35,339 bases of DNA from Bacteroidaceae bacterium (GTDB taxonomy: Bacteria > Bacteroidota > Bacteroidia > Bacteroidales > Bacteroidaceae). The stretch lies in contig JAFSRW010000095.1 of NCBI GenBank assembly GCA_017445925.1, forward strand, positions 1 to 35,339, written 5' to 3'. Of the stretch, positions 17,990-19,606 are shown in pieces. Numbering within the stretch: position 1 is the stretch's first letter; each line of letters starts with the position of its first letter. A program made the position numbers and the translations under genes. Under the pieces are notes generated by a model. That model was not told where the DNA came from. It did not search any database and saw nothing but the letters and a program-made list of their open reading frames with translations.

Positions 17990-19606
17990 TTATACGGCAT
18001 ACATTCTTTCTTTCTGTTCCTTGATAGCCTCGCTGCTGATATAATCGTCATACTCCATCAGCTTGTCAATTGTTCCGTTGGGTGTCAGTTCTATGATACG
18101 TGTGGCAACGGTCTGAATAAACTCATGGTCGTGACTGCTGAAGAGGATATTCCCTTTGAAGAGTTTCAGGTTGTTGTTGAAAGCCTGAATGCTTTCCAAA
18201 TCCAGATGGTTAGTCGGCGTGTCAAGTATCAGACAGTTGGCATTCTTCAACTGCATACGGGCAATCATACAGCGCATCTTTTCACCTCCAGAGAGTACGT
18301 TCACCTTCTTCAGGACTTCTTCGCCACTAAAGAGCATTCGTCCCAGGAACTGCTTGAAGTAAACCTCGTTACCTTCGCCAAACTGCCCCAGCCAGTCTAC
18401 CAGGTTCAGGTCGCTCTGGAAAAACTCTGTATTGTCAAGGGGTAGGTAAGCCGTGGTAATGGTAATACCCCAGTTGTAGGTTCCGGCATCTGCTTCACGG
18501 TTACCATTGATAATCTCAAAGAGTGCTGTCATGGCACGAGGGTCATGACTGAGGAACACCACCTTGTCACCTTTTTCGATGGTAAAGTTTACGTTGTCAA
18601 ACAGAACAGTTCCGTCCTCCATGGTGGCTTTCAGTCCTTCCACTTCAAGAATCTGATTACCCGGCTCACGGTCCATCTGGAAGATGATACCAGGATACTT
18701 TCTGGTAGAAGGTCTGATTTCCTCCACATTCAGTTTCTCCAGCATCTTCTTTCGGCTGGTAGTCTGCTTGCTCTTTGCCACATTGGCAGAGAAACGGCGG
18801 ATAAACTCCTCCAGTTCCTTTCTCTTCTCCTCTGCCTTAGCCTTCTGGTTCTGAGCCTGACGCAGCGCTAACTGGCTACTCTGATACCAGAAGCTATAGT
18901 TACCGGCAAACATTGTCACCTTGCCAAAATCGATGTCTACTGTGTGGGTACAAACGCAGTCCAGGAAGTGTCGGTCGTGGCTTACAACCAATACCGTGTG
19001 TTCAAACTCACTCAGGTATTGTTCCAGCCATTGAACGGTGTCAAGGTCCAGGTCGTTGGTAGGCTCATCCAGCAACAGGTTGTCAGGGTTTCCAAACAGG
19101 GCTTTTGCTAGCATCACGCGAACCTTCTCCTTACCTGAGAGTTCTCCCATCAGCTGGTGATGCTTTTCTTCCTTGATACCTAAGCCGGAGAGTAGGGCAG
19201 AGGCGTCGCTTTCTGCTGTATAGCCACCCATCTCGGCAAATTTGTCTTCCAATTCTGCTACACGAATGCCGTCTTCGTCGGTAAAGTCCGATTTTGAGTA
19301 CAGGGCTTCACGTTCCTGCATTACATCCCACATAGTGGTATGACCCATCAGAACAGTGTTCAGAACTGTTTCGTGATCGTATTGGAAGTGGTCCTGACTC
19401 AGAACGCTCAGGCGTTCACCGGGACCTAATTCTACGGTTCCCTTTGTGGGTTCCAGTTCACCGCTGATAGCTTTCAGCAGGGTGGATTTTCCTGCTCCGT
19501 TGGCACCTATTACACCATAAATGTTGCCACCGGTGAACTTCATATTTACATCCTTGTAAAGGACTCTTTTGCCAAATTGTACAGCAATGTTAGATAATGT
19601 AATCAT
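17990..19606 (-). CDS. ABC-F ATPase, YbiT-like, with degenerate second nucleotide-binding domain
   Basis: 538 aa, soluble, two ABC domains joined by a charged linker (about 245-300); the order and the linker segment [17 protein letters not shown] resemble E. coli YbiT. ABC-F proteins act on the ribosome. Domain 1 is intact: Walker [10 protein letters not shown] 34-42, signature LSGKE 156-160, Walker B LLLDE 177-181, SHD 209-211. Domain 2 keeps the signature LSGGE (438-442) and SHD (490-492), but the Walker A position reads [10 protein letters not shown] (352-361) with no P-loop lysine, and Walker B reads LILDT (459-463) with Thr for the catalytic Glu. It starts 12 nt after the LysM gene. Confidence 0.92.

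Follow-up and report, generated by a model that had tools for sequence, protein, structure and literature searches.

The gene at positions 17990–19606 (minus strand) of the window, which is the whole 35,339-nucleotide stretch of Bacteroidaceae DNA analysed here, encodes a YbiT/YkpA-type ABC-F protein in which the second of the two ATP sites has lost its P-loop and catalytic Glu, and this protein is probably a translation factor that cycles on one ATP, with site II kept as a structural interface. The two domains of an ABC pair share their ATP sites, one domain giving the Walker A and B motifs and its partner the signature. As proposed in a preliminary description of this DNA, site I alone seems capable of functioning as an ATP site, and the LSGGE of NBD2 supplies its signature. 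The proposal is built on the motif states, conservation, phylogeny and absence of gene decay described below, and its ribosome binding, one-ATP closure and hinge role are drawn from family knowledge. Only site I (NBD1 Walker A/B and NBD2 LSGGE) would bind and hydrolyse ATP; a single ATP bound there would bring the tweezers-like NBD pair into its closed state on the ribosome, and hydrolysis of this ATP would set the protein free. Lacking a P-loop, A-loop, Q-loop and catalytic residues, site II would have lost the ability to bind Mg-ATP, and its interface would serve as a fixed nucleotide-free contact or hinge.

The gene was found to be one unbroken frame of 538 amino acids starting with ATG at 19606. 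The protein contains ABC_tran (PF00005) in two stretches and the linker ABC_tran_Xtn (PF12848; 73.9 bits against a cut-off of 25.9), which covers the P-site tRNA interaction motif (PtIM) region at residues 223–304 (18695–18940, minus strand), and these tandem ABC domains joined by the PtIM linker constitute the ABC-F architecture. The top NCBIfam model was the YbiT equivalog NF011646 with 609 bits, which is under its cut-off of 762. The Paenibacillus and Cytobacillus proteins scored 682 and 692, respectively, also under the cut-off, as against 1067 for E. coli YbiT, and only 1 of 14 control genomes passed it; thus, the cut-off seems to be tuned to the E. coli type of YbiT. When the protein was searched with phmmer against solved structures, the top match was E. 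coli YbiT (9njf, E = 1.4e-153), and in the tree 41 YbiT-type rows were placed on one side of a 100/100 branch from two long-branched outgroup rows. The resistance ABC-F models Vga, Sal, OptrA, Msr and Lsa and the general ribosomal-protection-like model all scored under their cut-offs for this protein (best 25 of 190 families). The source genome assembly has 100 contigs and is 83.7% complete; no close YbiT-type copy besides this gene was found in it, but it has at least two more ABC-F proteins of 27–31% identity, one on contig 34 and one at the end of the window's contig. The latter (33665–35338, plus strand, open at the contig end) is EttA-like with both ATP sites intact, and it scored 460 bits with the EttA model, under the cut-off, and above the cut-off of the general ribosomal-protection-like model. 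It had been offered as an internal contrast; it does keep both sites, but being EttA-like by NCBIfam it is not a like-for-like control. Orthologues of the 17990–19606 gene were found in 63 of 149 genomes of the same order (own genome counted; 3 as fragments) and in 90 of 92 same-class genomes among the matches listed, with 7 more genomes having no match. The product is the genome's YbiT/YkpA-type ABC-F and presumably a translation factor, which would enter the ribosomal E site in an ATP-closed form.

The motifs were compared in an alignment of 245 rows, which excludes two copies of the window gene (L001 and L165), a fragment (L182) and, with the exception of L002 and L003, the lower-scoring ABC-F loci; coordinates of all the motifs are on the minus strand. 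The canonical Walker A and Walker B with the catalytic Glu that had been described for NBD1 were borne out and are invariant in the rows covering them but for one Walker A. The Walker A of site I (GANGAGKST, residues 34–42, 19481–19507) was canonical in 242 of the 243 rows covering it, the only exception being the EttA-like protein at the end of the window's contig (AQNGTGKST), and its Lys was present in 243/243 rows. The Q-loop (residues 68–74, 19385–19405) had Gln, which is Gln71 here, in all 244 rows with a residue there. The Walker B with the D-loop (residues 176–187, 19046–19081) had Asp180 and the catalytic Glu181 in 245/245 rows, and the H-loop (residues 207–214, 18965–18988) had His210 in the same number. 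The signature that NBD2 contributes to this site (VLSGGEK, residues 437–443, 18278–18298) had Ser-Gly-Gly in 245/245 rows. Site I is canonical and its catalytic residues are invariant in all rows covering them.

The consensus Walker A and B motifs of an ABC domain were not found in NBD2, where the P-loop is replaced and the Walker B reads LILDTPTN. Alignment to E. coli YbiT confirmed the earlier observation that this P-loop has no Lys and that the Walker B Glu is changed to Thr, with LSGGE and SHD kept. The lost P-loop (residues 352–361, 18524–18553) aligns with LGTNGVGKST of E. coli YbiT and has Met359 at the Lys position, and the altered Walker B (residues 458–469, 18200–18235) has Thr463 for the Glu of LIMDEPTNHLD in E. 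coli. Beyond the changes listed earlier, NBD2 has also lost the Gln of its Q-loop and the aromatic residue of its A-loop. The Q-loop region (AYLPLDN, residues 386–392, 18431–18451) aligns with GYYAQDH of E. coli YbiT and has Leu390 for Gln, and the A-loop region (residues 326–332, 18611–18631) has Met329 for the aromatic residue. The Q-loop Gln was seen in 5/5 of the intact-P-loop YbiT rows inspected against 0/9 of the clade rows inspected, and the same numbers were obtained for F/Y in the A-loop. The NBD1 signature that would complete site II (ELSGKEKV, residues 155–162, 19121–19144) is degenerate and less conserved than 69–88% of same-length windows in four row sets; the intact signature motifs of the preliminary description therefore hold for NBD2 (VLSGGEK) and not for NBD1, which has LSGKE rather than canonical LSGGE/Q. 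NBD2 retains the Walker B Asp and the H-loop His (FSSHDHEF, residues 489–496, 18119–18142), with His492 kept in 67/67 same-order and 42/54 same-class rows; the His, the Walker B Asp and Thr360 are mostly kept across relatives.

The P-loop of NBD2 (P-loop 2) was canonical in 16 and non-canonical in 229 of the 245 rows. The canonical ones were four outgroup ABC-Fs and 12 other YbiTs of the E. coli and Chlamydia types (E. coli, Proteus, Halomonas, Pseudoalteromonas, Neochlamydia and seven from other classes of the phylum, 38–42% identical), and none of the rows of the alignment with at least 47% identity to the window gene had a canonical P-loop 2, so the motif state of the window gene does not look like chance. 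Close relatives were searched for the normal P-loop and LDEPTN that a local mutation would leave there, and the Lys and the Walker B Glu were both absent in 67/67 same-order rows (a set in which L001, L165 and the fragment L227 are still counted and whose species may overlap with those of the next) and in 80/80 rows of the genome_contigs set, which holds the best 80 of 591 confirmed loci, 82–98% identical. With 54 rows from other orders, the Lys was gone in 201/201 rows of the class, and the Gly preceding it was replaced in the same 201 rows. Outside the class, P-loop 2 was non-canonical in 13/13 Bacteroidota rows at 52–58% identity and in 12/12 named rows from Paenibacillus, Cytobacillus, a Bacillus velezensis plasmid, Peptoclostridium, Pusillibacter, Subdoligranulum, two lactobacilli, three Fusobacteriota and Mycoplasmopsis. 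Thus, a subgroup confined to Bacteroidota is too narrow and was ruled out, since rows from Bacillota, Fusobacteriota and Mycoplasmopsis share this state, which is that of a wider YbiT/YkpA-type clade. The Glu position of Walker B2 was T/S/N/H in 67/67 same-order rows, Q in 3/3 clostridial rows and Mycoplasmopsis, N in two Fusobacteriota rows, with E kept in the third one, D in the two lactobacilli and G in 5/13 out-of-class Bacteroidota rows. The Glu was kept in 44/54 same-class rows of other orders, 7/13 out-of-class Bacteroidota rows and 4/12 named rows, including the Bacillaceae rows of Cytobacillus (P-loop 2 VGVNEIAKTT) and the B. velezensis plasmid (TGRNELAVTT). Among the rows sampled, the loss of site II appears most complete in Bacteroidales.

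Canonical signature 1 (LSGGE) was seen in one clade row, Peptoclostridium, which counts against the one-ATP reading. In the YbiTs with an intact P-loop 2, signature 1 was non-canonical in 12/12 rows, so that site II looks impaired throughout the YbiT subfamily. This allows a wider reading, in which the whole subfamily would be a one-ATP ribosome machine with site II disabled by two routes, at the NBD1 signature in the E. coli/Chlamydia type (12/12) and, in the Bacillota–Bacteroidota type, at three loops of NBD2 (P-loop, A-loop and Q-loop), with the site I catalytic residues left untouched throughout and the second site acting as a permanent structural latch. We hold this wider reading tentatively, at somewhat less than even chances; if true, it would mean that ABC-F action on the ribosome needs one ATP only. 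A different outcome, that site II still binds nucleotide non-catalytically so that two nucleotides are bound and one is hydrolysed, is unlikely. In asymmetric ABC exporters, ATP is considered to be retained at the degenerate site, and the kept H-loop His, Walker B Asp and Thr360 of NBD2 would agree with such binding, as would the survival of Lys359 in 7/12 named rows outside Bacteroidota and 8/13 out-of-class Bacteroidota rows, where site II may still bind ATP weakly or without hydrolysing it. However, the absence of the Lys and replacement of the preceding Gly in every one of the 201 class rows (including the best 80 of 591 genome_contigs loci), together with the lack of both the aromatic A-loop residue and the Gln of the Q-loop in the 9 clade rows inspected, speak against it.

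The order of these losses was examined in trees built without the site II columns and thinned to 101 rows (quick) and 43 rows (careful); the rows outside the thinned trees were assigned to the clade by similarity, and the 43-row tree also omits L003, L269 and L264. The degenerate rows formed one branch, with 100/100 support in the 43-row tree (34 rows) and an SH-aLRT of 99 in the 101-row tree (85 rows). The loss had been described as clean, and indeed it lies in one frame without frameshift and is shared by descent. The minimum number of changes on the tree was 2 for Gly358, 5 for Lys359 and 5 (43 rows) or 12 (101 rows) for Glu463. Parsimony counts alone carry no direction, and with the intact P-loop 2 of the outgroups and other YbiTs we read this as the P-loop Gly having probably been lost first and the Lys and Glu later, repeatedly. 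We infer that P-loop 2 began failing in the common ancestor of the Bacteroidota/Bacillota/Fusobacteriota/mycoplasma clade. Since 44/54 same-class rows of other orders keep the Glu, LDTPTN is the local part and the P-loop loss the deep part of the change, and a joint loss of the P-loop and the Walker B Glu was ruled out. The tests for coupled loss of the Lys, the Glu and the Ser of signature 1 rest on only 4 to 6 independent pairs.

The conservation of each motif was ranked by the share of same-length windows that were more conserved. In same-order rows (n = 64), this share was 1% for Walker A1 and none for Walker B1, as compared with 45% for the P-loop 2 region and 69% for signature 1, and Walker B2 (20%) and H-loop 2 (23%) were mildly relaxed. 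P-loop 2 and signature 1 were exceeded by 89% and 88% of windows, respectively, in other orders of the class (n = 54), and by 89% and 70% in Bacillota/Fusobacteriota/mycoplasma rows (n = 12); for the YbiTs with an intact P-loop 2 (n = 12) the values were only 8% and 75%. By these ranks, both halves of site II are relaxed in the degenerate clade, as compared with one half in the E. coli type. The Walker B2 region was exceeded by 16–24% of windows in the three clade sets, and because it is only mildly relaxed and the His, Walker B Asp and Thr360 are mostly kept, site II has not been erased. Pooled dN/dS among the genome_contigs relatives (best 80 of 591) was 0.090 for NBD1 and 0.112 for NBD2; for the motif groups it came to 0.046 (site I), 0.048 (NBD2 part of site II), 0.033 (the replaced Walker motifs by themselves) and 0.145 (signature 1), as estimated by simple counting on 452 usable of 3240 pairs, which overlap and have synonymous sites near saturation. 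The replacement residues are held among close relatives, yet drift over longer distances, and their retention at close range argues against pseudogene decay, which was ruled out by the low dN/dS. That the entire protein is a pseudo-ATPase or the product of a decaying gene, in which site I need not work, would fit the loss of several catalytic residues of NBD2, but it is very improbable given the invariance of the site I residues in rows covering them, the dN/dS of about 0.1 in both domains and the orthologues retained in the order and among the listed matches of the class. A local mutation, frameshift or assembly error in the source genome, which a fragmented assembly might invite, was ruled out by the unbroken frame and the degenerate orthologues lacking both Lys and Glu in all same-order and genome_contigs (best 80 of 591) rows, and its chances are negligible. 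The one-ATP translation factor with a structural site II is thus the reading that we favour; the intact ABC-F linker and the finding of no further close YbiT-type copy in the 84%-complete genome also speak for it.

The genes glucosaminidase-LysM, ABC-F, grpE and dnaJ follow each other on the minus strand of the window, the ABC-F gene being flanked by 19619–20563 and 16053–17925, with 12 bases between the first two genes. The grpE gene was directly downstream of the ABC-F gene in 55 of 80 genome_contigs loci (best 80 of 591; absent in 22, displaced in 1 and without room in 2) and in 4 of 37 loci of the order search, two of these 37 being copies of the window locus. With the window's own GrpE as query, which a distant GrpE could escape, grpE was found beside the ABC-F gene in 0/24 same-class and 0/20 out-of-class loci, the flanks being mostly 1.5–3.7 kb (one of the 20 was without room and one had 1 kb). 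Since the link was found only among close relatives, the grpE–dnaJ partnership is a recent neighbourhood and was set aside as a clue to function. Between the ABC-F gene and grpE, at 17958–17974 (minus strand), there is a sigma-54-type site, TTGGCACACTTTTTGTA, with a chance expectation of 0.10 in the window when one mismatch is allowed. Of the 56 genome_contigs loci that have grpE (from the best 80 of 591), 45 showed a match with up to two mismatches to TGGCACRNNNNTTGTA, the sigma-54 consensus, within 170 bases around the start of grpE, and a control stretch about 1 kb upstream had such a site in 0/56 loci. The genome has a match to the sigma-54 DNA-binding domain and only three exact sigma-54 sites, one of them some 45 bases in front of a Clp_N/AAA/UVR chaperone gene (L273); near the third, no family match was obtained in the one ORF tested. 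This suggests a possible sigma-54 control of heat-shock genes in the source genome. Furthermore, a tandem array of about five copies of the 14-base unit TCTAATCTCTCAAC (plus strand) was seen between grpE and dnaJ at 17258–17342, and short repeats of similar flavour at 10803–10930. Elsewhere in the window, 31572–33512 (minus strand) encodes a protein with a Lys/Ala/Glu-rich N-terminal stretch encoded by tandem repeats (33214–33358), and the part after this stretch reads like transcription terminator Rho from its translation alone.

E. coli YbiT (b0820; PDB 9njf and five further entries) shares with the window protein the architecture, the linker, a canonical site I and a non-canonical signature 1 (VAPGW), but at 43% identity it keeps P-loop 2 (LGTNGVGKST) and, also in NBD2, the Glu of Walker B, the Gln of the Q-loop and the aromatic residue of the A-loop. 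The named Bacillota rows, at 50–59% identity, fall in the clade of the window gene. B. subtilis YkpA/YbiT is reported to promote the translation of charged or difficult stretches (PMC11381351), and the functional guess for the window gene comes from this report. ABC-F domains are described as each carrying consensus Walker motifs, with the pair closing on two ATPs, and the usual trapping experiment is described as mutation of both catalytic Glu (PMC11282234). The degenerate YbiT-type clade departs from the two-site rule of that description, and double Glu-to-Gln mutants would be single-site mutants wherever the second Glu is already missing. A widespread clade from which nature has removed one site makes the number of ATPs per ABC-F cycle and the role of each site testable. 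The family is known, and a search of the open-access literature, with subscription papers and supplements outside it, returned no report of a lost second ATP site in YbiT/YkpA or any other ABC-F; its absence in this clade is unreported in that literature, which is not proof of novelty. A Bacteroidetes-only ABC-F group, BdAF1, is named once in the main text, in Table 1, of PMC6723617 and could overlap with the degenerate clade.

Asymmetry of ATP sites has precedents in related systems. The two sites contribute unequally in MsrD, as deduced from mutants, and the same is cited there for Vga(A) (PMC10314930). MsrD differs in having both catalytic Glu, its asymmetry coming from mutants, whereas in the window gene the asymmetry is built into the sequence. 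The single MsrD mutant reported to keep some resistance is the first Walker B mutant (PMC10314930), a result that would be opposite to the site I-only prediction if carried over directly. ABCE1 is likewise a twin-ATPase acting on ribosomes that is described as asymmetric, but it belongs to another family and two ATP sites are described for it (PMC6124641). ABC exporters with a degenerate site also combine one consensus and one degenerate composite site (PMC7756269, PMC12038006), and the hallmark of their degenerate site is given as a missing catalytic Glu (PMC7544095); these are membrane transporters, whereas in the window gene the P-loop itself is replaced.
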